Under the pieces are notes generated by a model. That model searched no databases, had not been told where the DNA came from, and was given only the letters and a program-made list of their open reading frames with translations. Below, in pieces: positions 14,042 to 60,489 of a stretch of 64,000 bases of DNA; the stretch's first letter is position 1, and each line of letters begins with the position of its first letter. The position numbers and the translations under genes were made by a program. Source of the DNA: Pohlia nutans (Eukaryota > Streptophyta > Bryopsida > Bryales > Mniaceae); NCBI GenBank assembly GCA_022496805.1, contig CM040094.1, positions 11,431,501 through 11,495,500 on the forward strand, written 5' to 3'.

Positions 14042-14534
14042 GCTCTACTCTTGGGGAAGTGTAAATTCAAGACATTGAATGCAATCCGGAATGAGAGTGA
14101 GCATCTGGGAAATTAGCGCTTAAATCTACATGTGTGTTTCTGGATCTCTATACCCTAAACCTAGATGTCCGTTTCTGGAGATAGATATAATTGTAGGATG
14201 TAGCTGTTGCCTTCGGAAAACCACTGTGATTGGAAGTAGCCGTCCAAACTCTGACAGATATCTAAAAAGATTTGCACAAATGCTGCACGAGGAGCACGAT
14301 GGCAAGTTGATACTAAAGTATGCACTCAGGATTAGACTCTCTTAAAGAATGAATGATTCTTACCTCAATATTAGGCGCTCATATATTTGAATTCCCTGTG
14401 TTAGTCTAACGAACCCTAAACCAAGCTGACATGTTCTAATCATTCTGTCAATAGTAATTATTCAAAACAAAAGTCAGAAATGGCTAGTGCCGGTTCAAAG
14501 TTGTTAACTGCATGAACGATGGGAGTTATTCATT
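14042..14534. promoter_or_regulatory. Shared divergent promoter region (493 bp)
   Basis: This spacer lies between the transposase start codon (minus, 14041) and the first Met of the ParB/methyltransferase gene (plus, 14535). It is AT-rich, with two CCCTAAAC words (14152 and 14413). A short upstream frame begins at the ATG at 14513 and overlaps the start at 14535. The arrangement allows co-regulation of the two genes. Confidence 0.5.
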
Positions 14535-14825
14535 ATGCATAGAGGAGCCCAGAAGAGAAGACGAAAGAGTAGTCTCAGGTTTAGTAGTAGAAAGCAATTG
14601 ATGCGAAGCAAGATGAAGTTGAGGAGTGGAAGTACTCAGGAACCTGCAGAGGTGGACACGCAAAGAGTTTTGGATTATGGAAACATTGTGTCTGAGCGGG
14701 AGCTGGAGACAATTGTAGAGACAAACTTTGAGACGCCCAGACAACAGCCTCCACAACAAAGCGATCAACCAGACATTTGTGAGGACGAGGAAAGTGATTC
14801 AGAGGAAGAGTCGCATGATGTCGAG
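14535..14825 (+). CDS. First exon of the ParB/methyltransferase gene (97 codons)
   Basis: Starts MHRGAQKRRRKSSLRF, basic at first, then acidic (CEDEESDSEEESHDVE). The donor GAG/GTAATA at 14826 leaves phase 0, which matches the next exon (ATG GAG AGC after CCGCAG at 15465). The gene could instead start at the Met at 15466. Confidence 0.5.
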
Positions 14826-17800
14826 GTAATATTGTGTTGTTTATGTAAGCAGTCGGAGCTATCATTTTGCGTCTTACAGTAAACTCCAATGACGCTAAGT
14901 TTTGTATGCTATCTATGGACCATTTTTTTAAGAGAACAATGTTTACTATCGATTAGCGCCTCGACGACTACATTGTCCAAAAATCATAATATATATATAT
15001 TTTTTGGCCCCTGGACTTTATCCTAGCCTTTACATTTCAGCCCCTAGCCTTGCCTGAGTCTTCAAGTTCTAGAACACCGGCTTGCTTGCCATCGAAACCA
15101 TGGCGCTGGTCCTCGTGAGGTGGGCCCTAGCCCTCTTAGGGTTTTCGAATCGCCCTCGTCTATTGCACTGTCCCATGGCAGCTCTCACTTGGGCTTGTCC
15201 ATACGAGCTTTCTGTAGTGCTTTTTTTTTGGCCCTTGCCGGCTGCTACACATCTATATCCAGCCCTCGTCTCCATCTTCTGGGTCTCGATCTTCTCGTGT
15301 TTTCCACAGCGTTTGTTTGTCTCTCTCCTGCCTAGACACGCTCACCTGGGTCTCAGTATCCTCACTGCCGTTGACACGCTCAGGGTTTTAGTAGACACGC
15401 TCAGGATCTCAGTAGACACCTCTACATTCAATGCTTTTGATTAAATACTTAGAAGAACACCGCAGATGGAGAGCGCACCAAAAGGTGATGCTCAAGGGAA
15501 TGCGGAAAATGCTGGTGGACAAATTCAGGAACACTCAGTCACGGAAAAATTGGAGACGGGAGCCTCAGTGGAGAATGAGATCATGGCCATCGGAACTCAG
15601 AGTGTGCATCCACGTATGGATGCTTTGACAATTTGTCTGAATTCTCAAAGCAATTCTTAAACCCTAATCAAATTTTGATACTTTTGAACACTCAAATTTG
15701 TTTTTTTTCTATGACTTCACAAAGCAAAGTAACCCTTGTGGAAGCCTGTCCTTACCCAGCCGAAACTGGCCTCACTGTGGAGGTCAATTTTTAATTTTCT
15801 TGAACAATCAAATTTGTTTTTTGTTTGTGAATTCTCAAAGCAAAGTAATTCTTGTGGAAGCCTGTCCGTACCCAGCCGGCACCGGCCTCACTGTAGAGGT
15901 CAATTTTTCAAATTTTTGAACACTCAACTTTGTTTTTTTGTTTGTAAATTCTCAAAGCAAAGTAATCCTTGTGGAAGCCTGTCCTTACCCAGCCGGCACC
16001 GCCTCACTGTGGAGGTAAATTTTGGATTATTTTGAACACTCAACTTTGCTTTTTGTTTGTGAATTCTCAAAGCAAAGTAATCCTTGTGGAAGCCTGTCCT
16101 TACCCAGCCCGCACCGGCCTCACTGTGGAGGTCAATTTTTCATTTTTTTGAACACTCAACAATGTTTTTCGTTTGTGAATTTTCAAAGCAAAGTAATCCT
16201 TGTGAAAACTTGGCCTTACCCAGCCAGCACCGGCCTCACTGTGCAAGTCAATTTTTGATTTCTTTGAACACTCAAATTTGTTTTCTGTTTGTGAATTCTC
16301 AAAGCAAAGTAATCCTTCTGGATGCCTGTCCTCACCCAGCCGGCACTGGCCTCACTGTGGAGGTCAATTTTTGATTTTTTTGAACACTCAACTTTGTTCT
16401 ATGTTTGTGAATTCTCAAAGCAAAGTAATCCTTGTGGACGCCTGTCCTCAACCAGCCGGCACCGGCCTTACTGTAGAGGTCAATTTTTGATTCTTTTGAA
16501 CACTCAACTTTGTTTTTTGTTTGTGAATTCTCAAAGCAAAGTAATTCTTGTGGAAGCTTGTCCTTACCCAGCCGGCACCGGCCTCACTGTAGAGGTCAAA
16601 TTTTGATTTTTTTGAACACTCAACTTTGTTTTTTTGTTTGTGAATTCTCAAAGCAAAGTCATCCTTGTGGAAGCCTGTCCTTACCCAGCCGGCACCGGCC
16701 TCACTGTAGAGGTCAATTTTTCATTTTTTTGAACACTCAACAATGTTTTTTGTTTGTGAATTTTCAAAGCAAAGTAATCCTTGTGGAAACTTGTCCTTAC
16801 CCAGCCGGCACCGGCCTCACTGTGCAGGTCAATTTTTGATTTCTTTGAACACTCAAATTTGTTTTCTGTTTGTGAATTCTCAAAGCAAAGTAATCCTTGT
16901 GGAAGCCTGTCCTTACCCAGCCGGCACCGCCTCACAAGGAGGTCAATTCTTGATTTTTTTGAACACTCAACTTTGTTTTTCATTTGTGAATTCTCAAAGC
17001 AAAGTAATCCTTGTGGAAGCCTGTCCTTACCCAGCCGGCACCGCCTCACAACGAGGTCAATTCTTGATTCTTTTGAACACTCAACTTTGTTTTTCATTTG
17101 TGAATTCTCAAAGCAAAGTAATTCTTGTGGAAGCCTGCCCTTACCCAGCCGGCACCGGCCTCACTGTAGAGGTCAATTTTTGATTTTTTTGAACACTCAA
17201 CTTTGTTTTTTTGTTTGTGAATTCTCAAAGCAAAGTAATCCTTGTGGACGCCTGTCCTCACCCAGCCGGCACCGGCCTCACTGTGGAGGTCAATTTTTGA
17301 TTTTTTGAACACTCAATTTTGTTTTTTGTTTGTGAATTCTGAAACCAATCTCTTCCTTGTGGAAGCCTGTCCTCACCCAGCCGGCACCGGCCTCACTGTG
17401 GAGGTCAATTTTTGATTTTTTTGAACACTCAACTTTGTTTTTTGATAGTGAATTCTCAAAGCAAAGTAATCCTTGTGGAAGCCTGTCCGTACCCAGCCGG
17501 CACCGGCCTCACTGTGGAGGTCAATTTTTCATTTTTTTGAACACTCAACTTTGTTTTTTGTTCGTGCATTTTCAATGCAAAGTAATCCTTGTGGAAGCCT
17601 GTCCGTACCCAGCCCGCACCGGCCTCACTGTGGAGGTCAAATTTTGATTTTTTTGAACACTCAACTTTGTTTTTTGTTTGTGAATTCTCAAAGCAAAGTA
17701 ATCCTTGTGGAAGCCTGTCCGTACCCAGCCGGCACCGGCCTCACTGTGGAGGTCAATTTTTGATTTTTTTGAACACTCAACTTTGTTTTTTGTTCGTGCA

Positions 17801-20800
17801 TTTTCAATGCAAAGTAATCCTTGTGGAAGCCTGTCCGTACCCAGCCCGCACCGGCCTCACTGTGGAGGTCAATTTTTGATTTTCTTGAACACTCAACTTT
17901 GTTTTTTGATAGTGAATTCTCAAAGCAAAGTAATCCTTGTGGAAGCCTGTCCGTACCCAGCCGGCACCGGCCTCACTGTGGAGGTCAATTTTTGATTTTT
18001 TTGAACACTCAACTTTGTTTTTTGTTCGTGCATTTTCAATGCAAAGTAATCCTTGTGGAAGCCTGTCCGTACCCAGCCCGCACCGGCCTCACTGTGGAGG
18101 TCAATTTTTGATTTTCTTGAACACTCAACTTTGTTTTTTGTTTGTGAATTCTCAAAGCAAAGTAATCCTTGTGGAAGCCTGTCCGTACCCAGCCGGCACC
18201 GGCCTCACTGTGGAGGTCAATTTTTGATTTTTTTGAACACTCAACTTTGTTTTTTGTTTGTGAATTCTCAAAGCAAAGTAATCCTTGTGGAAACCTGTCC
18301 GTACCCAGCCGGCACCGGCCTCACTGTGGAGGTCAATTTTTGATTTTTTTGAACACTCAACAATGTTTTTTGTTTGTGAATTTTCAAAGCAAAGTAATCC
18401 TTGTGGAAACTTGTCCTTACCCAGCCGGCACCGGCCTCACTGTGCAGGTCAATTTTTGATTTCTTTGAACACTCAAATTTGTTTTCTGTTTGTGAATTCT
18501 CAAAGCAAAGTAATCCTTGTGGAAGCCTGTCCTTACCCAGCCGGCACCGCCTCAAAAGGAGGTCAATTCTTGATTTTTTTGAACACTCAACTTTGTTTCT
18601 CATTTGTGAATTCTCAAAGCAAAGTAATCCTTGTGGAAGCCTGTCCTTACCCAGCCGGCACCGCCTCACAAGGAGGTCAATTCTTGATTTTTTTGAACAC
18701 TCAACTTTGTTTTTCATTTGTGAATTCTCAAAGCAAAGTAATTCTTGTGGAAGCCTGTCCTTACCCAGCCGGCACCGGCCTCACTGTAGAGGTCAATTTT
18801 TCATTTTTTTGAACACTCAACTTTGTTTTTTTGTTTGTGAATTCTCAAAGCAAAGTAATCCTTGTGGACGCCTGTCCTCACCCAGCCGGCACCGGCCTCA
18901 CTGTGGAGGTCAATTTTTGATTTTTTGAACACTCAATTTTGTTTTTTGTTTGTGAATTCTGAAACCAATCTCTTCCTTGTGGAAGCCTGTCCTTACCCAG
19001 CCGGCACCGGCCTCACTGTGGAGGTCAATTTTTGATTTTTTTGAACACTCAACTTTGTTTTTTGTTCGTGCATTTTCAATGCAAAGTAATCCTTGTGGAA
19101 GCCTGTCCGTACCCAGCCGGCACCGGCCTCACTGTGGAGGTCAATTTTTGATTTTCTTGAACACTCAACTTTGTTTTTTGTTTGTGAATTCTCAAAGCAA
19201 AGTAATCCTTGTGGAGGCCTGTCCGTACCCAGCCGGCACCGGCCTCACTGTGGAGGTCAATTTTTGATTTTCTTGAACACTCAACTTTGTTTTTTGTTTG
19301 TGAATTCTCAAAGCAAAGTAATCCTTGTGGAAGCTTGTCCGTACCCAGCCGGCACCGGCCTCACTGTGGAGGTCAATTTTTGATTTTCTTGAACACTCAA
19401 CTTTGTTTTTTGTTTGTGAATTCTCAAAGCAAAGTAATCCTTGTGGAAGCCTGTCCGTACCCAGCCGGCACCGGCCTCACTGTGGAGGTCAATTTTTGAT
19501 TTTCTTGAACACTCAACTTTGTTTTTTGTTTGTGAATTCTCAAAGCAAAGTAATCCTTGTGGAAGCCTGTGCGTACCCAGCCGGCACGGGCCTCACTGTG
19601 GAGGTCAATTTTTGATTTTCTTGAACACTCAACTTTGTTTTTTGTTTGTGAATTCTCAAAGCAAAGTAATCCTTGTGGAAGCCTGTCCGTACCCAGCCGG
19701 CACCGGCCTCACTGTGGAGGTCAATTTTTGATTTTCTTGAACACTCAACTTTGTTTTTTGTTTGTGAATTCTCAAAGCAAAGTAATCCTTGTGGAAGCCT
19801 GTCCGTACCCAGCCCGCACCGGCCTCACTGTGGAGGTCAATTTTTGATTTTTTTGAACACTCAACTTTGTTTTTTGTTTGTGAATTCTCAAAGCAAAGTA
19901 ATCCTTGTGGAAGCCTGTCCGTACCCAGCCGGCACCGGCCTCACTGTGGAGGTCAATTTTTGATTTTTTTGAACACTCAACTTTGTTTTTTGTTCGTGCA
20001 TTTTCAAAGCAAAGTAATCCTTGTGGAAGCCTGTCCGTACCCAGCCGGCACCGGCCTCACTGTGGAGGTCAATTTTTGATTTTTTTGAACACTCAACTTT
20101 GTTTTTTGTTCGGGCATTTTCAAAGCAAAGTAATCCTTGTGGAAGCCTGTCCGTACCCAGCCGGCACCGGCCTCACTGTGGAGGTCAATTTTTGATTTTT
20201 TTGAACACTCAACTTTGTTTTTTGTTCGTGCATTTTCAATGCAAAGTAATCCTTGTGGAAACTTGTCCTTACCCAGCCGGCACCGGCCTCACTGTGCAGG
20301 TCAATTTTTGATTTCTTTGAACACTCAAATTTGTTTTCTGTTTGTGAATTCTCAAAGCAAAGTAATCCTTGTGGAAGCCTGTCCTTACCCAGCCGGCACC
20401 GCCTCACAAGGAGGTCAATTCTTGATTTTTTTGAACACTCAACTTTGTTTTTCATTTGTGAATTCTCAAAGCAAAGTAATCCTTGTGGAAGCCTGTCCTT
20501 ACCCAGCCGGCACCGCCTCACAAGGAGGTCAATTCTTGATTTTTTTGAATACTCAACTTTGTTTTTCATTTGTGAATTCTCAAAGCAAAGTAATTCTTGT
20601 GGAAGCCTGTCCTTACCCAGCCGGCACCGGCCTCACTGTAGAGGTCAATTTTTCATTTTTTTGAACACTCAACTTTGTTTTTTTGTTTGTGAATTCTCAA
20701 AGCAAAGTAATCCTTGTGGACGCCTGTCCTCACCCAGCCGGCACCGGCCTCACTGTGGAGGTCAATTTTTGATTCTTTTGAACACTCAACTTTGATTTTT

Positions 20801-23800
20801 GTTCGTGCATTTTCAATGCAAAGTAATCCTTGTGGAAGCCTGTCCGTACCCAGCCCGCACCGGCCTCACTGTGGAGGTCAATTTTTGATTTTTTTGAACA
20901 CTCAACTTTGTTTTTTGATAGTGAATTCTCAAAGCAAAGTAATCCTTGTGGAAGCCTGTCCGTACCCAGCCGGCACCGGCCTCACTGTGGAGGTCAATTT
21001 TTGATTTTTTTGAACACTCAACTTTGTTTTTTGTTTGTGAATTCTCAAAGCAAAGTAATCCTTGTAGAAGCCTGTCCGTACCCAGCCCGCACCGGCCTCA
21101 CTGTGGAGGTCAATTTTTGATTTTTTTGAACACTCAACTTTGTTTTTTGTTTGTGAATTCTCAAAGCAAAGTAATCCTTGTGGAAGCCTGTCCGTACCCA
21201 GCTGGCACCGGCCTCACTGTGGAGGTCAAATTTTGATTTTTTTGAACACTCAACTTTGTTTTTTGTTCGTGCATTTTCAATGCAAAGTAATCCTTGTGGA
21301 AGCCTGTCCGTACCCAGCCCGCACCGGCCTCACTGTGGAGGTCAATTTCTGATTTTTTTGAACACTCAACTTTGTTTTTTGTTCGTGCATTTTCAATGCA
21401 AAGTAATCCTTGTGGAAGCCTGTCTGTACCCAGCCCGCACCGGCCTCACTGTGGAGGTCAATTTTTGATTTTTTTGAACACTCAACTTTGTTTTTTGATA
21501 GTGAATTCTCAAAGCAAAGTAATCCTTGTGGAAGCCTGTCCGTACCCAGCCGGCACCGGCCTCACTGTGGAGGTCAATTTTTGATTCTTTTGAACACTCA
21601 ACTTTGATTTTTTTTTGTGAATTCTCAAAGCAAAGTAATCCTTGTGGAAGCCTGTCCTTACCCAGCCCGCACCGGCCTCACTGTGGAGGTCAATTTTTCA
21701 TTTTTTTGAACACTCAACTTTGATTTTTTTTTGTGAATTCTCAAAGCAAAGTAATCCTTGTGGAAGCCTGTCCGTACCCAGCCGGCACCAGCCTCACTGT
21801 GGAGGTCAATTTTTGATTTTTTTTAACACTTAAATTTGTTTTTTGTTCGTGCATTTTCAATGCAAAGTAATCCTTGAGGAAGCGTGTCCATACCCAGCCG
21901 ACACCGGCTTCACTGTGGAGGTCAATTTTTGATTTTTTTGAACACTCAACTTTGTTTTTTGTTTGTGAATTCTCAAAGCAAAGTAATCCTTATGGAAGCC
22001 TGTCCGTACCCAGCCGGCACCGGCCTCACTGTGGAGGTCAATTTTTGATTTCTTTTAACACTCAACTTTGTTTTTTGTTTGTGAATTCTCAAAGCAAAGT
22101 AATCCTTGTGGAAGCCTGTCCGTACCCAGCCGGCACCGGCCTCACTGTGGAGGTCAATTTTTGATATTTTTGAACACTCAACTTTGTTTTTTTGTTTGCG
22201 AATTCTCAAAGCAAAGTAATCCTTATGGAAGCCTGTCCGTACCCAGCCGGCACCGGCCTCACTGTGGAGGTCAATTTTTGATTCTTTTGAACACTCAACT
22301 TTGATTTTTTTTTGTGAATTCTCAAAGCAAAGTAATCCTTGTGGAAGCCTGTCCTTACCCAGCCCGCACCGGCCTTACTGTGGAGGTCAATTTTTCATTT
22401 TTTTGAACACTCAACTTTGATTTTTTTTTGTGAATTCTCAAAGCAAAGTAATCCTTGTGGAAGCCTGTCCGTACCCAGCCGGCACCAGCCTCACTGTGGA
22501 GGTCAATTTTTGATTTTTTTTAACACTCAAATTTGTTTTTTGTTCGTGCATTTTCAATGCAAAGTAATCCTTGAGGAAGCGTGTCCATACCCAGCCGACA
22601 CCGGCTTCACTGTGGAGGTCAATTTTTGATTTTTTTGAACACTCAAATTTGTTTTTTGTTTGTGAATTCTCAAAGCAAAGTAATCCTTGTGGAAGCCTGT
22701 CCGTACCCAGCCGGCACGGGCCTCACTGTGGAGGTCAATTTTTGATTTTCTTGAACACTCAACTTTGTTTTTTGTTTGTGAATTCTCAAAGCAAAGTAAT
22801 CCTTGTGGAAGCCTGTCCGTACTCAGCCGGAACCGGCCTCACTGTGGAGGTCAATTTTTGATTTTTTTGAACACTCAACTTTGTTTTTTGTTCGTGCATT
22901 TTCAATGCAGAGTAATCCTTGTGGAAGCCTGTCCGTACCCAGCTGGCACCGGCTTCACTGTGGAGGTCAATTTTTGATTTTTTTGAACACTCAACTTTGT
23001 TTTTTGTTCGTGCATTTACAATGCAAAGTAATCCTTGTGGAAGCCTGTCCGTACCCAGCTGGCACCGGCTTCACTGTGGAGGTCAATTTTTGATTTTTTT
23101 GAACACTCAACTTTGTTTTTTGTTCGTGCATTTTCAATGCAAAGTAATCCTTGTGGAAGCCTGTCCGTACCCAGCTGGCACCGGCTTCACTGTGGAGGTC
23201 AATTTTTGATTTTTTTGAACACTCAACTTTGTTTTTTGTTCGTGCATTTTCAATGCAAAGTAATTCTTGTGGAAGCCTGTCCGTACCCAGCTGGCACCGG
23301 CTTCACTGTGGAGGTCAATTTTTGATTTTTTTGAACACTCAACTTTGTTTTTTGTTTGTGAATTCTCAAAGCAAAGTAATCCTTATGGAAGCCTGTCCGT
23401 ACCCAGCCGGCACCGGCCTCACTGTGGAGGTCAATTTTTGATTTCTTTTAACACTCAACTTTGTTTTTTGTTTGTGAATTCTCAAAGCAAAGTAATCCTT
23501 GTGGAAGCCTGTCCGTACCCAGCCGGCACCGGCCTCACTGTGGAGGTCAATTTTTGATATTTTTGAACACTCAACTTTGTTTTTTTGTTTGCGAATTCTC
23601 AAAGCAAAGTAATCCTTATGGAAGCCTGTCCGTACCCAGCCGGCACCGGCCTCACTGTGGAGGTCAATTTTTGATTTCTTTTAACACTCAACTTTGTTTT
23701 TTGTTTGTGAATTCTCAAAGCAAAGTAATCCTTGTGGAAGCCTGTCCGTACCCAGCCGGCACCGGCTTCACTGTGGAGGTCAATTTTTGATTTTTTTGAA

Positions 23801-26800
23801 CACTCAACTTTGTTTTTTGTTCGTGCATTTTCAATGCAAAGTAATCCTTGTGGAAGCCTGTCCGTACCCAGCTGGCACCGGCTTCACTGTGGAGGTCAAT
23901 TTTTGATTTTTTTGAACACTCAACTTTGTTTTTTGTTCGTGCATTTTCAATGCAAAGTAATCCTTGTGGAAGCCTGTCCGTACCCAGCTGGCACCGGCTT
24001 CACTGTGGAGGTCAATTTTTGATTTTTTTGAACACTCAACTTTGTTTTTTGTTCGTGCATTTTCAATGCAAAGTAATCCTTGTGGAAGCCTGTCCGTACC
24101 CAGCTGGCACCGGCTTCACTGTGGAGGTCAATTTTTGATTTTTTTGAACACTCAACTTTGTTTTTTGTTCGTGCATTTTCAATGCAAAGTAATTCTTGTG
24201 GAAGCCTGTCCGTACCCAGCTGGCACCGGCTTCACTGTGGAGGTCAATTTTTGATTTTTTTGAACACTCAACTTTGTTTTTTGTTTGTGAATTCTCAAAG
24301 CAAAGTAATCCTTATGGAAGCCTGTCCGTACCCAGCCGGCACCGGCCTCACTGTGGAGGTCAATTTTTGATTTCTTTTAACACTCAACTTTGTTTTTTGT
24401 TTGTGAATTCTCAAAGCAAAGTAATCCTTGTGGAAGCCTGTCCGTACCCAGCCGGCACCGGCCTCACTGTGGAGGTCAATTTTTGATATTTTTGAACACT
24501 CAACTTTGTTTTTTTGTTTGCGAATTCTCAAAGCAAAGTAATCCTTATGGAAGCCTGTCCGTACCCAGCCGGCACCGGCCTCACTGTGGAGGTCAATTTT
24601 TGATTTTCTTGAACACTCAACTTTGTTTTTTGTTTGTGAATTCTCAAAGCAAAGTAATCCTTGTGGAAGCCTGTCCGTACCCAGCCGGCACCGGCCTCAC
24701 TGTGGAGGTCAATTTTTGATATTTTTGAACACTCAACTTTGTTTTTTTGTTTGCGAATTCTCAAAGCAAAGTAATCCTTATGGAAGCCTGTCCGTACCCA
24801 GCCGGCACCGGCCTCACTGTGGAGGTCAATTTTTGATTTTCTTGAACACTCAACTTTGTTTTTTGTTTGTGAATTCTCAAAGCAAAGTAATCCTTGTGGA
24901 AGCCTGTCCGTACCCAGCCGGCACCGGCCTCACTGTGGAGGTCAATTTTTGATATTTTTGAACACTCAACTTTGTTTTTTTGTTTGTGAATTCTCAAAGC
25001 AAAGTAATCCTTGTGGAAGCCTGTCCGTACCCAGCCGGCACCGGCCTCACTGTGGAGGTCAATTTTTGAATTTCTTGAACACTCAACTTTGTTTTTTGTT
25101 TGTGAATTCTCAAAGCAAAGTAATCCTTGTGGAAGCCTGTGCGTACCCAGCCGGCACGGGCCTCTCTGTGGAGGTCAATTTTTGATTTTCTTGAACACTC
25201 AACTTTGTTTTTTGTTTGTGAATTCTCAAAGCAAAGTAATCCTTGTGGAAGCCTGTCCGTACCCAGCCGGCACCGGCCTCACTGTAGAGGTCAATTTTTC
25301 ATTTTTTTGAACACTCAACTTTGTTTCTTTGTTTGCGAATTCTCAAAGCAAAGTAATCCTTGTGGATGCCTACCTGTACCCAAAGGGCACCGGCCTCACT
25401 GTGGAGGTCAATTTTTGATTTTTTTGAACACTCAACTTTGTTTTTTGTTTGTGAATTCTCAAAGCAAAGTAATCCTTGTGGAAGCCTGTCCGTACCCAGC
25501 CGGCACCGGCCTCACTGTGGAGGTCAATTTTTGATTTTCTTGAACACTCAACTTTGTTTTTTGTTTGTGAATTCTCAAAGCAAAGTAATCCTTGTGGAAG
25601 CCTGTCCGTACCCAGCCGGCACCGGCCTCACTGTGGAGGTCAATTTTTGATATTTTTGAACACTCAACTTTGTTTTTTGTTTGGGAATTCTCAAAGCAAA
25701 GTAATCCTTTTGGAAGCCTGTCCGTACCCAGCCGGCACGGGCCTCACTGTGGAGGTCAATTTTTGATTTTTTTGAACACTCAACTTTGTTTTTTGTTTGT
25801 GAATTCTCAAAGCAAAGTAATCCTTGTGGAAGCCTGTCCGTACCGAGCCGGCACGGGCCTCACTGTGGAGGTCAATTTTTGATTTTTTTGAACACTCAAC
25901 TTTGTTTTTTGTTTGTGAATTCTCAAAGCAAAGTAATCCTTGTGGAAGCTTGTCCGTACCCAGCCGGCACCGGCCTCACTGTGGAGGTCAATTTTTGATT
26001 TTCTTGAACACTCAACTTTGTTTTTTGTTTGTGAATTCTCAAAGCAAAGTAATCCTTGTGGAAGGCTGTCCGTACCCAGCCGGCACGGGCCTCACTGTGG
26101 AGGTCAATTTTTGATTTTCTTGAACACTCAACTTTGTTTTTTGTTTGGGAATTCTCAAAGCAAAGTAATCCTTTTGGAAGCCTGTCCGTACCCAGCCGGC
26201 ACGGGCCTCACTGTGGAGGTCAATTTTTGATTTTTTTGAACACTCAACTTTGTTTTTTGTTTGTGAATTCTCAAAGCAAAGTAATCCTTGTGGAAGCCTG
26301 TCCGTACCGAGCCGGCACGGGCCTCACTGTGGAGGTCAATTTTTGATTTTCTTGAACACTCAACTTTGTTTTTTGTTTGTGAATTCTCAAAGCAAAGTAA
26401 TCCTTGTGGAAGCCTGTCCGTACCCAGCCGGCACGGGCCTCACTGTGGAGGTCAATTTTTGATTTTCTTGAACACTCAACTTTGTTTTTTGTTTGTGAAT
26501 TCTCAAAGCACAGTCATCCTTGTGGAAGCCTGTTCGTACCCAGCCGGCACCGGCCTCACTGTGGAGGTCAATTTTTGATTTTCTTGAACACTCAACTTTG
26601 TTTTTTGTTTGTGAATTCTCAAAGCAAAGTAATCCTTGTGGAAGCCTGTCCGTACCCAGCCGGCACCGGCCTCACTGTAGAGGTCAATTTTTCATTTTTT
26701 TGAACACTCAACTTTGTTTCTTTGTTTGCGAATTCTCAAAGCAAAGTAATCCTTGTGGATGCCTACCTGTACCCAAAGGGCACCGGCCTCACTGTGGAGG

Positions 26801-50800: not shown

Positions 50801-53800
50801 CCTCACTGTGGAGGTCAATTTTTGATTTTCTTGAACACTCAACTTTGTTTTTTGTTTGTGAATTCTCAAAGCAAAGTAATCCTTGTGGAAGCCTGTGCGT
50901 ACCCAGCCGGCACGGGCCTCACTGTGGAGGTCAATTTTTGATTTTCTTGAACACTCAACTTTGTTTTTTGTTTGTGAATTCTCAAAGCAAAGTAATCCTT
51001 GTGGAAGCCTGTCCGTACCGAGCCGGCACCGGCCTCACTGTGGAGGTCAATTTTTGATTTTCTTGAACACTCAACTTTGTTTTTTGTTTGTGAATTCTCA
51101 AAGCAAAGTAATCCTTGTGGAAGCCTGTCCGTACCGAGCCGGCACCGGCCTCACTGTGGAGGTCAATTTTTGATTTTCTTGAACACTCAACTTTGTTTTT
51201 TGTTTGTGAATTCTCAAAGCAAAGTAATCCTTGTGGAAGCCTGTCCGTACCCAGCCGGCACCGGCCTCACTGTGGAGGTCAATTTTTGATTTTCTTGAAC
51301 ACTCAACTTTGTTTTTTGTTTGTGAATTCTCAAAGCAAAGTAATCCTTGTGGAAGCCTGTCCGTACCCAGCCGGCACCGGCCTCACTGTGGAGGTCAATT
51401 TTTGATTTTTTTGAACACTCAACTTTGTTTTTTGTTTGTGAATTCTCAAAGCAAAGTAATCCTTGTGGAAGCCTGTCCGTACCCAGCCGGCACGGGCCTC
51501 ACTGTGGAGGTCAATTTTTGATTTTCTTGAACACTCAACTTTGTTTTTTGTTTGTGAATTCTCAAAGCAAAGTAATCCTTGTGGAAGCCTGTGCGTACCC
51601 AGCCGGCACGGGCCTCACTGTGGAGGTCAATTTTTGATTTTCTTGAACACTCAACTTTGTTTTTTGTTTGTGAATTCTCAAAGCAAAGTTATCCTTGTGG
51701 AAGCCTGTCCGTACCCAGCCGGCACCGGCCTCACTGTGGAGGTCAATTTTTGATTTTCTTGAACACTCAACTTTGTTTTTTGTTTGTGAATTCTCAAAGC
51801 AAAGTAATCCTTGTGGAAGCCTGTCCGTACCCAGCCGGCACGGGCCTCACTGTGGAGGTCAATTTTTGATTTTCTTGAACACTCAACTTTGTTTTTTGTT
51901 TGTGAATTCTCAAAGCAAAGTAATCCTTGTGGAAGCGTGTCCGTACCCAGCCGGCACCGGCCGCACTGTGGAGGTCAATTTTTGATTTTTTTGAACACTC
52001 AACTTTGTTTTTTGTTTGTGAATTCTCAAAGCAAAGTAATCCTTGTGGAAGCCTGTCCGTACCCAGCCGGCACCGGCCTCACTGTGGAGGTCAATTTTTG
52101 ATTTTCTTGAACACTCAACTTTGTTTTTTGTTTGTGAATTCTCAAAGCAAAGTAATCCTTGTGGAAGCCTGTCCGTACCCAGCCGGCACGGGCCTCACTG
52201 TGGAGGTCAATTTTTGATTTTCTTGAACACTCAACTTTGTTTTTTGTTTGTGAATTCTCAAAGCAAAGTAATCCTTGTGGAAGCCTGTCCGTACCCAGCC
52301 GGCACGGGCCTCACTGTGGAGGTCAATTTTTGATTTTCTTGAACACTCAACTTTGTTTTTTGTTTGTGAATTCTCAAAGCAAAGTAATCCTTGTGGAAGC
52401 CTGTCCGTACCCAGCCGGCACCGGCCTCACTGTGGAGGTCAATTTTTGATTTTCTTGAACACTCAACTTTGTTTTTTGTTTGTGAATTCTCAAAGCAAAG
52501 TAATCCTTGTGGAAGCCTGTCCGTACCCAGCCGGCACGGGCCTCACTGTGGAGGTCAATTTTTGATTTTCTTGAACACTCAACTTTGTTTTTTGTTTGTG
52601 AATTCTCAAAGCAAAGTAATCCTTGTGGAAGCCTGTCCGTACCCAGCCGGCACGGGCCTCACTGTGGAGGTCAATTTTTGATTTTCTTGAACACTCAACT
52701 TTGTTTTTTGTTTGTGAATTCTCAAAGCAAAGTAATCCTTGTGGAAGCCTGTCCGTACCCAGCCGGCACCGGCCTCACTGTGGAGGTCAATTTTTGATTT
52801 TCTTGAACACTCAACTTTGTTTTTTGTTTGTGAATTCTCAAAGCAAAGTAATCCTTGTGGAAGCCTGTCCGTACCCAGCCGGCACGGGCCTCTCTGTGGA
52901 GGTCAATTTTTGATTTTCTTGAACACTCAACTTTGTTTTTTGTTTGTGAATTCTCAAAGCAAAGTAATCCTTGTGGAAGCGTGTCCGTACCCAGCCGGCA
53001 CCGGCCTCACTGTGGAGGTCAATTTTTGATTTTTTTGAACACTCAACTTTGTTTTTTGTTTGTGAATTCTCAAAGCAAAGTAATCCTTGTGGAAGCCTGT
53101 GCGTACCCAGCCGGCACGGGCCTCACTGTGGAGGTCAATTTTTGATTTTCTTGAACACTCAACTTTGTTTTTTGTTTGTGAATTCTCAAAGCAAAGTAAT
53201 CCTTGTGGAAGCCTGTCCGTACCCAGCCGGCACCGGCCTCACTGTGGAGGTCAATTTTTGATTTTGTTGAACACTCAACTTTGTTTTTTGTTTGTGAATT
53301 CTCAAAGCAAAGTAATCCTTGTGGAAGCCTGTCCGTACCCAGCCGGCACCGGCCTCACTGTGGAGGTCAATTTTTGATTTTCTTGAACACTCAACTTTGT
53401 TTTTTGTTTGTGAATTCTCAAAGCAAAGTAATCCTTGTGGAAGCCTGTCCGTACCCAGCCGGCACCGGCCTCACTGTGGAGGTCAATTTTTGATTTTCTT
53501 GAACACTCAACTTTGTTTTTTGTTTGTGAATTCTCAAAGCAAAGTAATCCTTGTGGAAGCCTGTCCGTACCCAGCCGGCACGGGCCTCTCTGTGGAGGTC
53601 AATTTTTGATTTTCTTGAACACTCAACTTTGTTTTTTGTTTGTGAATTCTCAAAGCAAAGTAATCCTTGTGGAAGCGTGTCCGTACCCAGCCGGCACCGG
53701 CCTCACTGTGGAGGTCAATTTTTGATTTTTTTGAACACTCAACTTTGTTTTTTGTTTGTGAATTCTCAAAGCAAAGTAATCCTTGTGGAAGCCTGTCCGT

Positions 53801-56800
53801 ACCCAGCCGGCACCGGCCTCACTGTGGAGGTCAATTTTTGATTTTCTTGAACACTCAACTTTGTTTTTTGTTTGTGAATTCTCAAAGCAAAGTAATCCTT
53901 GTGGAAGCCTGTCCGTACCCAGCCGGCACCGGCCTCACTGTGGAGGTCAATTTTTGATTTTTTTGAACACTCAACTTTGTTTTTTGTTTGTGAATTCTCA
54001 AAGCAAAGTAATCCTTGTGGAAGCCTGTGCGTACCCAGCCGGCACGGGCCTCACTGTGGAGGTCAATTTTTGATTTTCTTGAACACTCAACTTTGTTTTT
54101 TGTTTGTGAATTCTCAAAGCAAAGTAATCCTTGTGGAAGCCTGTCCGTACCGAGCCGGCACCGGCCTCACTGTGGAGGTCAATTTTTGATTTTCTTGAAC
54201 ACTCAACTTTGTTTTTTGTTTGTGAATTCTCAAAGCAAAGTAATCCTTGTGGAAGCCTGTCCGTACCCAGCCGGCACCGGCCTCACTGTGGAGGTCAATT
54301 TTTGATTTTTTTGAACACTCAACTTTGTTTTTTGTTTGTGAATTCTCAAAGCAAAGTAATCCTTGTGGAAGCCTGTCCGTACCCAGCCGGCACCGGCCTC
54401 ACTGTGGAGGTCAATTTTTGATTTTCTTGAACACTCAACTTTGTTTTTTGTTTGTGAATTCTCAAAGCAAAGTAATCCTTGTGGAAGCCTGTCCGTACCC
54501 AGCCGGCACGGGCCTCACTGTGGAGGTCAATTTTTGATTTTCTTGAACACTCAACTTTGTTTTTTGTTTGTGAATTCTCAAAGCAAAGTAATCCTTGTGG
54601 AAGCCTGTCCGTACCCAGCCGGCACCGGCCTCACTGTGGAGGTCAATTTTTGATTTTCTTGAACACTCAACTTTGTTTTTTGTTTGTGAATTCTCAAAGC
54701 AAAGTAATCCTTGTGGAAGCCTGTCCGTACCCAGCCGGCACCGGCCTCACTGTGGAGGTCAATTTTTGATTTTCTTGAACACTCAACTTTGTTTTTTGTT
54801 TGTGAATTCTCAAAGCAAAGTAATCCTTGTGGAAGCCTGTCCGTACCCAGCCGGCACCGGCCTCACTGTGGAGGTCAATTTTTGATTTTCTTGAACACTC
54901 AACTTTGTTTTTTGTTTGTGAATTCTCAAAGCAAAGTAATCCTTGTGGAAGCCTGTCCGTACCCAGCCGGCACCGGCCTCACTGTGGAGGTCAATTTTTG
55001 ATTTTTTTGAACACTCAACTTTGTTTTTTGTTTGTGAATTCTCAAAGCAAAGTAATCCTTGTGGAAGCCTGTCCGTACCCAGCCGGCACGGGCCTCACTG
55101 TGGAGGTCAGTTTTTGATTTTCTTGAACACTCAACTTTGTTTTTTGTTTGTGAATTCTCAAAGCAAAGTAATCCTTGTGGAAGCCTGTCCGTACCCAGCC
55201 GGCACGGGCCTCACTGTGGAGGTCAGTTTTTGATTTTCTTGAACACTCAACTTTGTTTTTTGTTTGTGAATTCTCAAAGCAAAGTAATCCTTGTGGAAGC
55301 CTGTCCGTACCCAGCCGGCACGGGCCTCACTGTGGAGGTCAATTTTTGATTTTCTTGAACACTCAACTTTGTTTTTTGTTTGTGAATTCTCAAAGCAAAG
55401 TAATCCTTGTGGAAGCTTGTCCGTACCTAGCCGGCACCGGCCTCACTGTGGAGGTCAATTTTTGATTTTTTTGAACACTCAACTTTGTTTTTTGTTTGTG
55501 AATTCTCAAAGCAAAGTAATCCTTGTGGAAGCGTGTCCGTACCCAGCCGGCACCGGCCTCACTGTGGAGGTCAATTTTTGATTTTTTTGAACACTCAACT
55601 TTGTTTTTTGTTTGTGAATTCTCAAACAAAGTTATTCTTGTGGAAGCATGTCCTCACCCAGCCGGCACCGGCCTCACTGTGGAGGTCAATTTTTGATTTT
55701 TTTTGAACACTAGAGTGCTGGAACTACTGTATGTCAGAACCCAACTTTTATCGAGTTATTGTGATCTCAATGAAGTTGGCGATCAGAACTTTGATTTGTC
55801 TCAGAGCTATGGATTTAGGGTTTAGTACTCTATGGGTAGTGGTTACAGCTTTGAACGAAGTGTTAAGATGCAACGATCTTGTTTCTCTTGTGAGGAAATT
55901 TCTCAATATTGTATGTACACTACGGTTTTCATTCCGATTAATTATGGACCTATGCGGTTTTATGTGTCATGCTGGTCTTTTCATGGTGGTTCAGTTGGAA
56001 TATTGTGTATTGTAGATCACACGTGGTATGGATTCAATGGGGATTTTGGCTAATAGGTTACATATTGAATACATGGGCATTTCGTGTAAGGAAGATCATA
56101 CGTGGTATGGAATAATTGGGGATTTCTTGAACCATAATTCACACGTTTTATTTATTCAATTGCGATTTTCTGTACTAGAGATCACACGTGATATTGATTC
56201 TATGTTGATATCGTGTACCATAGATTACACGTGGTATTGAGTTCATATGTAGTGAGTGCTCAAATGCTAACATCGTTTTGGTGTCTATAGAGCAATCTCC
56301 ATTGGATACAAAGGGTGAAATTCAAGAAAATGAAGGAGAAGACCTTGAAGGTGCTAATCTATCATGATGATGATTCACATTGCCTGTTTATTATTTACCT
56401 TTGAAATACTAAATTTTTTATCTTCATTATTTTGAAGGTGATTCTGGCGACCTTGGTGATCCCGTTGACCTCGGTGACCATACGCAAGATGGGCGGTTGA
56501 GTGAGAGGGACGTTCATTCACAGCTAAACTCTATTCTCTTGAGTGAGACCCCTAATACACGATCTCGAATTGAACGACTGCGGTTCCAACCTCGTCACAA
56601 GTCCCGTTTGCTAATTCCTCTCTGTAGAATGGTATGTCTTCTTGTTGTGAGACCTTTTCTCAAAAACGATGTCATGAAGCTGGCTTCCCATTTTATCAAA
56701 AATGGATACATGGAAGGTAACGGTGTATTCTATGTGGCCACTGAGGACAACAACGGTAAGACCAAACTTGTCACTCCAGAAATTAAATCATCTTGGAGTC

Positions 56801-59800
56801 ACCATTGGATTCGTGTCAACGATGATTTCGAATCCATGCTTGCTGCAGATCCCATCCTCAATGTGTTCTGTGGGAAGATGTTCCATGTTTGGAATGGAAA
56901 CCATAGAGTCCAGGCTTGGATGCCAATCATAAATCAGGACCATTCAAATGATCTTAGATGGCATTACTTAGTTGATAGCATCATCCTAGAGGTAAAAGGA
57001 GATGTACCCACGATGCTTACTGCTCTACACGAAGTCAATTGGTACGATTTCTATTACTGATTAACTTTGCTTTTATGTAGTTTTTGTGTATGATTTCATA
57101 ACTAGACTTATTCAAATGTATTTGATTTAACAGGAGAAATGAAATGTCTCATGTGACTTCCAACCTTGTGCATAAACTCTATCAAGTTCGAACCATTAGG
57201 GCTCAACCTCTCTCATATTTTAAATCATTGGTGCCACCTGAGGACCTTCGACTCTCTGATCAGAAACAGAAGGGTGACAAGAGCCAGACATGGTTTTCAT
57301 TGACTGTTGATTCTCTCAGTGCTCTTCTGAATCAGGTATAACCGTCACTTAACTGCTGAAGTTTGTGTATAATGTTGGCAATTAGTTCTTTCATAATGTC
57401 TGTTTAATTGTTGTCTTCCTATTGCAGCAAGAGATTGGAGAAGCAACCGCCGTTGCTCAGAGGAGATTTTATGAGAGATATCCTAATCCAGAAGATTGGA
57501 CTGCTAAGAGACTTGAGGAACTGGTGCACAGGGCTGTGAAGAAAACCAAAGTTCATTACAAGGGTGAGTTGAAGAAGATGCTGCCTGTTGCTGATCCCAG
57601 CAATACCATACCTTTTCTTGAGGAAGTGAAGTATCACTATGAGTCTCATGATGAAGATCCAGAGATGAAGCTTGAGAAGCTTTGGATGCTTGGCACCAGC
57701 GTTATGGATCCTATAATGAAGGTTCTTTGGCTTGAACGTTGGAATCAGCCTGCAAAACTCCGAGTGCAACTCAGGTTTCCTAAACCAAACTTTAGTGATG
57801 ACACCTTCTTGATCTGGCTTCACAAAGCTACTTGGTGGTCCCAGGTATATTCCAAGTTTTCTCTACCAAGTTCTCTATGTTTTCTATTAGTGCTCCCACA
57901 ATTTCACATTGGATTCTTATATCACATTGTTATTATTTCATTACATTTTTCTCAAATGTTACAATTTCTGCAGTTGACCATGGAAGCTGGTGTCATTTTC
58001 AAGTGCATTGTTCGAGATCAAAAGGTCACCATCGATTACCACCCAGACGGTAGAGACCCAATACCCACCATCTATGATTACATTGAGGAAATGCGAATTT
58101 CACTCTGGGACACTGCTTTCTACAGAGAATTTGCTGTTGATAAAGGCATTCACAAGAACAATACGGTTGACAAGCAATATCTGTTCAAACCTGCATTGCA
58201 CCGTGTCTTGTACCGATACTTTAAGTATATTTTGTTTCCGGCAAAGGCCATGTCTAGGTCCCCTCCATTATTTGTGAACTATCTTGATGAAGAAAGTGAT
58301 GAGTTCATGCTCACAGAAGGGCTTATGAAACAGTGGGATATTGTGCACTGGGACCGCTGTGGGTGGTACTTAGATTGTCCACTTACCAAGCCTCCTTCAT
58401 TTGACATTGCCCTGCGAGACTCCCTCGAGCCTAGGCTGATTGGAACAAGTACACAGAAGGACACAGCAACTGTTGAGAAGGAAGCTGCTTCGACGCAGAA
58501 GGCAACCACGACATCCAAGCGTGGTTCAAAACGCAAGGCTGATGCTGTTGAGACTTCTGCACCAGCGGCTGCAGTTCCATCTACTCCCACTGTGGCCAAT
58601 ACCGCAGCACCACCACCAGCACAGAGTCGACCTCCACCGGTAGAGACCCCAACAGTGACAGTAGCGGAGCCTGCAACGAAGAGGGTGAAGTTGTCCAATG
58701 CAGGCCCTTCTACTCCAACGGTGTTCCTTTCTCCCCCGAAACGAGCACCCATGTTGAGCAAGCCCGGTGTTAGTGTTGCAGAGTACACTTGTCTTGACCT
58801 TCTTGTCAACGATTCTTTCTTGCGAATGGCAGATGAAAAGAAGAAAACCGGTCAATTCTGCCCAGAGTATAATCAGATCGTGGAGTTTTTGAAGAAGGTA
58901 AAAACTACTTCTATATTTTTTGGGTCTATTGTTTGCCAATTGTTATTAGTTTGTGTATTGTAGTCTCAATATTTGATTCTTTATGTTGTAATGAGATAGT
59001 GGAGTTATTGAAGAATGTGAACACTACATTTTGTTTTTGATTCATTGTTTGCCAATTGGTATTAGTTAGTGGATTGTAGTCTCAATATTTAATTCTCCAT
59101 GTTTCTTCATTGTGACACAGGTTTCTGGCTCTAGACAGCTATTCTTTGACGGTAAGGCTGTAGAGAAACCGGGGGTTGATCTACTTATTGCAGAGTATCT
59201 AGATGGCTTGAGGGTCCCCGGTGTTTCAGACCCTCCATCTCAGGTTCCTAATTGGAATGAGAGTCTTGAGGGTTTTTTGAAGGTCACCATGGGATTTGCG
59301 TATGCTTATCTCCATGACGATGGTGCATTTCTCGTTTTTTACTCTGACAGTTCCATTGTCAAAAAAGAAGTAATGTCCTATTTTAAAAACTATAAGATGA
59401 AAGTAGTTGATGAGTGGACAATCATCAACTACCTCCATCTAGCGAATCCGCTCCATCCATCTAAAAATGTGAGCTCCTCTAACTTTTAATCCTTCTTCTA
59501 ATTGTATTTCTAGGACATGTTATGTAATATGACATTGTATGTATTAATATTCATTGTTTTTTTTGTAGACCTTGAAGTTCAAGGCGGTTCTTCTTGCCCG
59601 TGATGTTCCCTCTACTGCTGCCCGTCAGCCCCCACCTCTAGTTATTGTAAAAGACCCGTCCATTCCGCAGGTCGACCTAGCGTGCGATGACGTTCTTTTC
59701 AACGCTGTGACGCTAGAGTCACAGCTGTTGAGGAAGGATACAGGGAGACCATGGCGTGGTCCCAAAGAGAAGTCAGAGGTGTTGATGAAATTGTTTGTGT

Positions 59801-60489
59801 ATGGTTTAACTCCAGAGAACGGTATCGTAGCAGACCTAACGGCATCCACAGGTAATTTCATTCTCCTTCATTGAATGCTAGAATTAATATCATGTGACCT
59901 TAAAGCCTTTGTTTCTAATAAACCTTTTCTACTCTATTGTGCAGGTGCATCTATCCGTGCAGCACGTGCTTGCAACCGTCACATTCTCGCACTTGAAAGC
60001 GACTCAAAGCTATTTGCTGAGGTCTTGAAGCCCCTCATTGCTCCTCAGCCACGGTCAGCGCCACCTAAGACCGCTCACATCACCCTTCCTGATTCTGATG
60101 ATGAGACCGTTCCTGATGAGCCCCTTGACTGTCCATGTGAGTAAGTTTCAATGTTTATTTAATGCACCTTGCAAATACTAGTTAATACATCTTCATCTGA
60201 ATACGTATTCTAATACTTTTACACTTCTCTTGTTTGCACTTTGACAAAGAATAGACCACTACAACGGCGCCGTTTTAACCTTAGAAAGTCCATGCAGAGT
60301 TTGGTAAGCCCTGATAGTTCCCCTCAAGGACTTCCACTATACGCAGAAGCATTGGCAACAGCATTTGCAAATGCTAGTCCTAGCCCTAGTGGTTCTTCAT
60401 GCTATTCTACACCGCATCGACATTATGATCCTCGTGTGCTTTCATATGTCGATGTGAGCGCTATCGAATCTGATACAGATTCACTTTGA
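14535..60489 (+). CDS. ParB-like nuclease domain / DNA methyltransferase-like fusion protein, 11 exons, about 1235 aa
   Basis: Model exons: 14535-14825, 15466-15613, 56291-56350, 56438-57041, 57134-57335, 57428-57844, 57974-58897, 59121-59468, 59569-59851, 59945-60140, 60255-60489. All joins keep frame with GT-AG borders. Residues 1-195 are basic, then acidic and disordered. Residues about 219-340 match a ParB/Srx-type nuclease fold: RLLIPLCRM, VRPFLKNDVMKLASHFIKNG, then HVWNGNHRVQAW (GNHR at 320-323). Residues about 436-740 are unrecognised. Residues about 740-840 are Thr/Ala/Pro-rich with nuclear-signal-like SKRGSKRKA and TKRVKLS. Residues about 883-1120 resemble a beta-class N4C/N6A methyltransferase: VDLLIAEYLDG where xDPPYG is expected, then a helix-strand (DGAFLVFY), then the AdoMet loop VADLTASTGASIRAA (D1087, G1093) and ILALESD. 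A Ser-rich tail follows. ParB plus methyltransferase is a phage/bacterial architecture. The link between the first two exons and the rest spans the satellite and is inferred from phase only. Confidence 0.6.
14985..15010. promoter_or_regulatory. AT-rich TATA-like tract
   Basis: A (AT)n run followed by T-rich sequence, inside the first intron of the model. It could be an alternative core promoter for a transcript starting before the Met at 15466, or simply part of the intron. Confidence 0.25.
15466..15613 (+). CDS. Second exon of the ParB/methyltransferase gene, directly before the satellite
   Basis: The acceptor is CCGCAG. The translation is MESAPKGDAQGNAENAGG... to SVHP, hydrophilic and probably disordered. 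Donor CAC/GTATGG at 15614 leaves one base, which fits the exon after the array (C + AG = Gln). If not spliced here, the frame ends at 15660 inside the first satellite sequence. Confidence 0.45.
15632..16740. repeat. Diverged left edge of the satellite array
   Basis: The first monomers carry many private changes (CCGAAACTGG, AACAATCAAATTTG, GAAAACTTGG and others), unlike the near-identical units further in. Degenerate edges with a homogenised centre are usual in satellites maintained by unequal exchange. Confidence 0.75.
16743..20800. repeat. Three copies of a complex satellite block with shortened monomers
   Basis: A distinctive series recurs near 16781, 18401 and 20253 (spacing 1620 and 1852 bp): a CACTGTGCAGGTC unit, then one with TTTTCTGTTTG, then two shortened units reading CACCGCCTCA-AAGGAGGTC or similar, then a TTTTTTTGTTTG unit. 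Confidence 0.75.
22919..24950. repeat. 929-bp higher-order repeat with type-B monomers
   Basis: A run of GTTCGTGCATTTTCAATGC monomers with CCCAGCTGGCACCGGCTTC is followed by units with CCTTATGGAAG and TTGCGAATTC. The same series returns 929 bp later (for example 23267 and 24196). Confidence 0.7.
25360..30000. repeat. Higher-order repeat marked by the GGATGCCTACCTGTACCCAA monomer
   Basis: This rare monomer occurs near 25360, 26753, 28494 and 29887. The spacings are 1393, 1741 and 1393 bp, and the neighbouring variant monomers recur in the same order. This indicates duplication of 12- and 15-monomer blocks. Confidence 0.8.
35649..42500. repeat. 1740-bp (15-monomer) higher-order repeat
   Basis: A marker monomer with TTTTCTGTTTG and GCCGGGACCGG occurs at 35649, 38433, 40173 and 41913. 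The last three are exactly 1740 bp apart with the same order of variants between them; the first is 2784 bp (24 units) before the second. Copies are nearly identical, pointing to recent amplification. The third 1740-bp copy is interrupted after about 42500. Confidence 0.85.
43923..51985. repeat. Long-range duplication inside the array (5104-bp offset) and 1624-bp block
   Basis: Monomers with AAAGTTATCC followed by two GAAGCGTGTCC units appear at about 44039-44600 and again at 49143-49700, offset 5104 bp (44 units). A related block follows at 51579. Between them, a 1624-bp (14-unit) series marked by paired GTACCGAGCC monomers repeats (46011/46707 against 47635/48331). Confidence 0.75.
55712..56290 (+). 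repeat. Right flank of the array: degenerate minisatellite with CACGTG words
   Basis: No satellite similarity after 55711. Between about 56003 and 56240, four diverged copies of a GATCACACGTGGTATGGATTC-type word occur (near 56012, 56096, 56180 and 56223), most keeping a CACGTG or ACGTGG core. The short open frames here have no protein-like composition. The sequence lies just upstream of exon 3 of the ParB/methyltransferase gene. Confidence 0.6.
56291..56350 (+). CDS. Third exon of the ParB/methyltransferase gene (60 nt)
   Basis: Between acceptor GTCTATAG and donor GAAG/GTGCTA. Encodes an acidic stretch, QQSPLDTKGEIQENEGEDLE. Phase 1 on both sides. Confidence 0.5.
56438..57335 (+). CDS. ParB-like exons (56438-57041 and 57134-57335)
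   Basis: Acceptor TTTTGAAG; internal junction AATTG/GTACGA to AACAG/GAGAAA joins as Trp; donor AATCAG/GTATAA. Encodes the ParB-type domain with strand RLLIPL, helix DVMKLASHFIKNGYMEG, a variable insert, and the diagnostic WNGNHRVQAW. A helical LHEVNWRNEMSHVTSNLVHKL region follows. In ParB proteins the GxHR loop binds CTP or acts in a nuclease fold; which applies here is unknown. Confidence 0.75.
57428..58897 (+). CDS. Central exons of the ParB/methyltransferase gene (57428-57844 and 57974-58897)
   Basis: First part helical (RRFYERYPNPEDWTAKRLEE, YHYESHDEDPEMKLEKLW). Second part has a compact block (KCIVRDQKVTIDYHPDGRD, HWDRCGWYLDCPL), then a Thr/Ala/Pro-rich linker with two nuclear-signal-like basic runs, then a short helical segment. 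No known domain recognised. The junction between the two is Gln/Leu in phase 0 (CCAG/GTATAT, CTGCAG). Confidence 0.75.
59121..60140 (+). CDS. Methyltransferase-like exons (59121-59468, 59569-59851, 59945-60140)
   Basis: Order of motifs fits a beta-class amino-methyltransferase: the strand VDLLIA with EYLDG in the catalytic motif IV position, then DGAFLVFYSDSS, then PWRGPKEKSEVLMKLF, then the AdoMet motif VADLTASTGASIRAARAC and RHILALESD. The glycine loop is split by an intron (ACA G/GT). Canonical (D/N/S)PP(Y/W) is not at the expected place; a DPPS occurs about 15 residues later. The enzyme may therefore be altered or inactive. Confidence 0.7.
60255..60489 (+). CDS. Last exon of the ParB/methyltransferase gene
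   Basis: Acceptor AAGAATAG at 60254. The frame set by the previous exon (GA + A = Glu) reads EPLQRRRFNLRKSMQSL... and ends ...IESDTDSL, stop 60487-60489. The tail is Ser-rich and of low complexity. Confidence 0.65.

Follow-up and report, generated by a model that had tools for sequence, protein, structure and literature searches.

An intron-bearing moss gene joins a ParB-like fold to a beta-class methyltransferase-like domain with an altered catalytic motif

Proteins in which a ParB domain is coupled to a DNA methylase belong to the biology of phages and plasmids. How should a gene of this architecture be read when it is found, interrupted by introns, in the DNA of a moss? The locus lies within 64,000 nucleotides of Pohlia nutans (assembly GCA_022496805.1, contig CM040094.1, positions 11,431,501 to 11,495,500 of the forward strand), a stretch that we call the window and to which all coordinates below refer. 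An earlier note on this DNA had described a single gene with ten introns at 14535-60489, its product carrying a ParB-like and a methyltransferase-like domain, and had read it as an acquired DNA-modification protein that might serve a mobile element. The observation is real in the core of the gene and goes beyond two motifs that coincide by chance. Half of the interpretation stands: the architecture is confirmed, the activity and mobility are not. The protein represents a new eukaryotic form of the prokaryotic ParB-methylase fusion, in which the catalytic motif has undergone an unusual, conserved change.

Our spliced model has 10 exons and 9 GT-AG introns of consistent phase and encodes 1138 amino acids with no stop or frameshift across its codons. 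Its solid core consists of eight plus-strand exons at 56438-60489, which code for both domains, some 700 residues apart, and which enclose seven of the nine introns within the region supported by homology. The longest plus-strand open reading frame (ORF) between 56291 and 60489 has 525 codons, against a mean of 104 and a maximum of 207 in 300 shuffles. Exons 3, 5 and 6 were open in 0 of 401, 0 of 2000 and 0 of 401 shuffles respectively, and exons 4, 7, 8, 9 and 10 in fractions of 0.022, 0.0005, 0.008, 0.066 and 0.013. GC content is 0.42-0.54 in the eight core exons versus 0.25-0.34 in the intervening introns. Homologous gene calls from environmental DNA run through introns at five of the nine model positions (57042, 57845, 58898, 59469 and 59852), which supports these junctions; two of the five lie inside the methylase domain. 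Intron positions that are common to relatives fit a long-resident gene.

The extent claimed by the earlier note holds for this core, while the upstream exons are not tied to it, and its count of ten introns stands only if the segment at 14535-14825 is included, the number being nine otherwise. That segment is open in 0.003 of 2000 shuffles, is covered by no homologue, and belongs to the gene only if it is spliced to 15466. The two exons that open our own model are no more open than expected by chance (0.18 of 2000 shuffles for 15466-15613 and 0.35 of 2000 for 56291-56350). The 5' end is unproven, a satellite of 40 kb, of which the earlier note makes no mention, lying between the core and the proposed first exons. 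The segments of the gene are as follows.

14535..14825, plus strand: exon 1 of the earlier note; 97 codons long, with a basic stretch followed by an acidic one; a GT donor (14826) and an in-phase join to 15466.
15466..15613, plus strand: possible exon 1 of the model; starts with ATG; GT donor, in phase.
56291..56350, plus strand: possible exon 2 of the model; splice consensus and phase.
56438..57041, plus strand: exon 3, ParB/sulfiredoxin-fold domain (fold at about 56599-57039); 48 relatives, a model and structure matches.
57134..57335, plus strand: exon 4, region after the ParB domain; splice consensus and phase.
57428..57844, plus strand: exon 5, middle region; without a Pfam match or known domain.
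57974..58897, plus strand: exon 6, middle region and Pro/Lys-rich linker; covered by relatives P0030-P0033.
59121..59468, plus strand: exon 7, start of the methyltransferase-like domain; EYLD at the motif IV position (59193-59204); profile alignment to YhdJ.
59569..59851, plus strand: exon 8, methyltransferase-like domain; contains WRGPKEK and, at 59833-59851, the opening part of motif I.
59945..60140, plus strand: exon 9, remainder of motif I with the helix and strand that follow it (RAARACNRHILALESD); the same intron is read through in P0020, P0027 and P0028.
60255..60489, plus strand: exon 10, C-terminal tail in open frame and stop (TGA at 60487-60489).

For the N-terminal half, we searched a large protein collection with the ParB piece cut from the whole protein and obtained 48 relatives. 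An AlphaFold model built from 48 aligned sequences (P0081 was left out of the alignment) reached a predicted local distance difference test score (pLDDT) of 85.8 and a predicted template modelling score (pTM) of 0.74. This model matches structures of ParB, Noc and sulfiredoxin (Srx), as well as the DNA methylase of Mycobacterium phage Vincenzo, and places a ParB/Srx fold at residues ~124-270, so that the ParB-like domain proposed from the sequence does have a structural counterpart. The GNHRVQA motif on which that proposal was based occurs once, at 56896-56915 on the plus strand, and in none of 100 shuffles; it occupies residues 223-229 of our model, which are the 320-326 of the earlier numbering minus 97. 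The arginine-bearing pocket motif reads NGNHR in the window and DGNHR in 36 of the 48 aligned rows, five rows being gapped at this site. A general Pfam scan of the joined protein returned no helix-turn-helix parS-binding domain of the kind that canonical partition ParB has alongside a partner ParA, no search aimed at that domain or partner having been made. PADLOC gave one weak homing-endonuclease match and one weak JetC match among the 48 members. Weak Pfam matches within the alignment, to DUF5531 (6/48), MC2 (4/48) and DndB (3/48), were not taken as identity, and a fold of exon 3 alone, predicted without relatives, was discarded (pLDDT 42).

The methylase piece recovered 30 relatives (E 8.4e-67 to 1.2e-14), 26 of which cover the domain itself; P0030-P0033 cover only the region before the domain and were dropped from the alignment. 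Nine of the 26 match the Pfam family N6_N4_Mtase, with a best E of 0.0061. We then compared profiles, using Escherichia coli YhdJ and ten phage methylases as an 11-sequence reference and masking read-through or unaligned ends in P0013, P0022, P0024, P0026 and P0027. Residues 800-1031 align with YhdJ 30-261 at a score of 51.6 (P 1e-6); four alternative reference rows gave 50.4-51.6, and the window sequence alone 36.7. In this alignment motif IV comes first and motif I last, the order of beta-class (N6A/N4C) enzymes, which, at the level of profiles, bears out the class that had been assigned to the domain.

The two methylase motifs have fared differently. The predicted loop DLTASTGAS is present at residues 990-998 of the spliced frame, where it is split by the intron at 59852-59944, and a search for the unspliced pattern finds nothing. 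Across the family, motif I follows D(L/M)(T/S)(A/T)(S/G)TG in 17 of 20 covering rows, a pattern of the DLTASTG/DLTAGTG type; this S-adenosylmethionine (AdoMet) loop-like motif is kept and may bind AdoMet. At the position of the YhdJ DPPY the window has EYLD. The site is covered by 17 of 27 rows, all of which read acidic-aromatic-(P/L)-(D/N), and none of the 17 has PP followed by an aromatic residue (Y/F/W). Since the change is shared and conserved, it does not represent decay of this copy. In N4CMT, a related captured enzyme, mutation of SPPY to APPA abolished N4-methylcytosine (4mC), as described in PMC8885841. The conserved loss of DPPY, together with the inactivity of that mutant, makes canonical base methylation doubtful, and judging by the motif we regard ordinary amino-methylation by this protein as doubtful. 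The working DNA-modification enzyme of the earlier note is accordingly not supported, given EYLD in the window and 16 other covering rows that likewise have no DPPY-like motif; an intron-bearing eukaryotic protein with both domains is.

Only one of the relatives has a name, P0060, which is M758_UG129100 of the moss Ceratodon purpureus, a U-chromosome protein whose annotation of 191 amino acids comprises no more than the ParB part. In a tree built from 45 rows of the ParB half, with P0073, P0075 and P0077 left out, there are several clusters of close copies, as would be the case if the family had been amplified repeatedly or if related species had been pooled. P0060 sits on a long branch beside P0043 (0.26 vs 0.011) and has KGNHR in place of DGNHR; it may be a decaying U-chromosome copy. 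Three queries against viral contigs (the ParB alignment, exon 3 and exon 6) and one against prokaryotic genomes (the ParB alignment) yielded no relative. A literature search returned no paper that we recognised as describing the family, from which we do not claim its absence from print; two giant-virus papers that were retrieved (PMC3493329, PMC3620924) mention nothing closer than the abbreviation Parbu and an author named Moss and are irrelevant.

The reading that we favour, with moderate confidence, is that the gene belongs to a multi-copy family of nuclear proteins, present at least in mosses, which descends from a bacterial or phage ParB-methylase and in which the methylase half acts as a DNA-recognition module and not as an ordinary writer. 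We infer the capture from a bacterial-type source, which would have taken place long ago. A nuclear protein is suggested by the runs KRGSKRKAD and ATKRVKL in exon 6, which resemble nuclear signals as judged by eye. The ParB/Srx domain (residues ~124-270) would most likely bind nucleotide and clamp or nick DNA. The beta-class fold (~800-1031), keeping motif I and having exchanged DPPY for acidic-aromatic-(P/L)-(D/N), would most likely recognise DNA with or without bound AdoMet. The protein could also be an accessory gene of a transposon, with a SWIM-type transposase gene divergently placed upstream.

Several results weigh against this reading. When residues 90-1138 were used as one query, 0 of 7991 scored candidates reached E 0.001, and it was splitting the query into two domains that recovered the relatives. 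That the halves are joined in relatives is shown only indirectly, by P0011 and P0045 sharing a longest-source-contig figure of 7087. On the ParB side, the Foldseek matches of the model have weak E-values, none at or below 0.001, three members match DndB, and Pfam ParBc is matched at E <= 1 by none of the 48 members, so that the kinship to ParB and sulfiredoxin rests on fold and motif. On the methylase side, the one Pfam match of the joined protein up to E 1, to N6_N4_Mtase (E 0.016), scores 15.6 bits where the cut-off is 26.7, the match to PHROG 3008, a DNA methyltransferase (E 0.013), fails its cut-off in PHROGs, and NCBIfam gives no match. A caveat applies to the controls of the profile comparison, which stayed low at 20.7 or less for 12 other E. 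coli proteins and 16.5 or less for 10 column shuffles: the proteins were single sequences set against the 11-sequence reference, and only the shuffles used the same profile. Searches of PDB sequences with both halves, as single sequences and as profiles, gave no related match. Finally, the motif IV change could mean altered chemistry and not lost activity. The weak PDB matches that did appear (SPT16, LacI, eL24) are unrelated proteins.

Four features that bear on a possible mobile element flank the gene and its satellite.

9822..10072, no strand: left arm of an inverted repeat, possible element end; CCTATDRCCGYGG twice on the plus strand, at 10011 and 10035.
10399..11955, minus strand: stop-to-stop ORF of 518 amino acids with a SWIM-like CxC...CxH motif (CSC...CKH).
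12125..14044, minus strand: stop-to-stop ORF of 639 amino acids with HVYDPTY... and GFMADSAQ... motifs, divergent from the ParB gene.
60612..60849, no strand: right arm of the inverted repeat; CCTATDRCCGYGG twice on the minus strand, at 60712 and 60649; a run of five CTGCTCA.

Judged by eye, the longer ORF may be the core of a transposase like those of Mutator-like elements (MULEs), and the shorter one the second part of the same transposase-like gene; the latter is presumed to resemble SWIM and MULE proteins. The arms score 67 in local alignment against a mean of 29.5 (sd 4.3, maximum 45) in 200 shuffles, the best of 676 block pairs, the next unrelated pairs scoring 49 inverted and 51 direct. 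The 13-base CCTATDRCCGYGG, a post hoc observation, has four copies outside the satellite array, two per end and in inverted orientation. A masked score of 111 counts N against N and is meaningless; with the N block subtracted the remainder is about noise, and the inverted repeat therefore leans on its GAGC-rich block. A permissive alignment of the flanks wandered across 3 kb and was discarded.

Taken together, the neighbours and the ends are suggestive of a mobile-element origin, and it is quite possible, at somewhat less than an even chance, that the gene is an accessory gene of a large terminal-inverted-repeat (TIR) transposon of ~9.8-60.85 kb, swollen by its satellite and carrying a divergent SWIM-bearing MULE-like transposase, with the ParB-methylase-like protein binding or protecting ends or repeats of the element itself. 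Such a role is narrower than, and compatible with, the favoured reading. It is consistent with the divergent ORFs, with an inverted repeat lying outside both genes, with the placement of CCTATDRCCGYGG and with the bursts of close copies in the tree. The repeat is imperfect, however, and consists mostly of the GAGC-rich block; its left arm coincides in part with the beginning of a further minus-strand ORF region; the two transposase-like ORFs have no Pfam match up to E 10; and among 321860 pairs compared for a target-site duplication, 16 near matches (8/9 bases) were obtained, none of which stands out.

An active amino-methyltransferase of 4mC or N6-methyladenine (6mA), guided by its ParB domain and working through an unorthodox motif IV in transposon or sperm epigenetics, appears unlikely to us. 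Motif I is retained in most covering rows and the first residue of motif IV is acidic in 17 of 17; there are also precedents, as transposons and tandem repeats of bdelloids receive 4mC from N4CMT, a beta-class enzyme acquired by capture (PMC8885841), and the 4mC of Marchantia sperm is made by MpDN4MT1a/b (PMC8566409). Against these stand the absence of P-P-(Y/F/W) from every covering row and the inactive APPA mutants. Of the explanations considered, the least probable, and one to which we give very little credence, is that the fusion is an artefact of joining the exons of two unrelated genes, or that the locus is a decayed pseudogene. Retrieval of no relative spanning both domains would agree with it, as would the unsupported exons 1 and 2 and the short Ceratodon annotation; but every exon from 3 to 10 is open and keeps the phase, three of them being open in none of the shuffles, the frame is uninterrupted throughout, and P0030-P0033 span the middle region and reach into the start of the piece used for the methylase search. 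A captured recognition protein remains the reading that we prefer. A bolder extension of it, improbable as it stands, would have a moss transposon family turn a phage-type ParB-methylase into a device for self-recognition, in which ParB is loaded onto sequence belonging to the element, perhaps the satellite of 345 copies that has grown inside the gene, and the altered methylase domain reads DNA instead of writing on it, or modifies it differently, marking copies that include those on the U/V sex chromosomes.

Among known systems, the closest are the bacterial and phage ParB-methylases, the captured or bryophyte N4-methyltransferases and, as we count them, the DndB/DGQHR proteins. Fusions of the first kind, which the earlier note called typical of phages and bacterial mobile elements, are indeed known from bacteria: PMC5512222 describes Bce_0392 from Bacillus cereus, where an adenine methylase is fused to a ParB domain that nicks nonspecifically. 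The window protein shares with Bce_0392 and the Vincenzo protein a ParB/Srx domain placed before an amino-methyltransferase domain, but it differs in being encoded by a nuclear gene with introns, in the ~500 additional residues that separate its domains, in an insert of 50 residues within the ParB fold, in a motif IV other than DPPY, and in that no sequence similarity to them was found in our searches. The N4CMT of bdelloid rotifers is likewise a bacterial-type beta-class amino-methyltransferase resident in a eukaryote with an added domain; unlike the window protein it is an active enzyme with SPPY intact, and the domain added to it is a chromodomain at the C-terminus, not a ParB domain at the N-terminus (PMC8885841). 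Marchantia MpDN4MT1a/b may be compared with the window protein as bryophyte DNA N4-methyltransferases, and the available part of PMC8566409 mentions no ParB domain for them. If the favoured reading is true, this plant-nuclear family, with its introns and a catalytic motif altered in a uniform way, would clearly exemplify how a multicellular eukaryote can keep and reshape a phage and plasmid module. Bryophyte sperm carry reported 4mC (PMC8566409), and a second, structurally different methylase-like family makes it a testable question which proteins there write such marks, which read them and which ignore them.

The satellite separating the proposed first exons from the rest of the gene would lie inside intron 1 if those 5' exons are real.

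15668..55711, no strand: satellite array; Tandem Repeats Finder (TRF) reports a 116-bp unit, 345.2 copies and 96% matches.

We divided the array into 344 units, 105 of them distinct. Measured against the consensus, unit identity is 0.94 at the left end and increases to ~0.99 at the right, a clear age gradient in which the nearly uniform right part was more recently homogenised or amplified. The near palindrome GCCGGCACCGGC, with 200 occurrences, was considered as a parS-like site, but 100 units carry GCCGGCACGGGC, which breaks the palindrome, and no such site is claimed. Between the array and exon 2, at 55990-56260, there are degenerate repeats of the form GATCACACGTGGTAT, seen as weak self-matches, which are possibly promoter elements. 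A two-copy tandem repeat of ~116 bp at 58870-59103 spans the end of exon 6 and the intron at 58898-59120; it has the length of the satellite unit and a different sequence, and the agreement is probably a coincidence.

To the left of the inverted repeat, the minus-strand region at 7339-9823 contains a 304-amino-acid ORF (7339-8253) with no family match and a possible upstream exon near 9823, and is possibly another gene or element adjoining the left arm. Further left, at 1827-7286, lies an intact-looking Copia long terminal repeat (LTR) retrotransposon with a 1384-amino-acid ORF containing gag, integrase and reverse transcriptase domains; its 260-bp LTRs are 99.6% identical by BLAST and it is flanked by the 5-bp repeat AATAC, making it a recent insertion.

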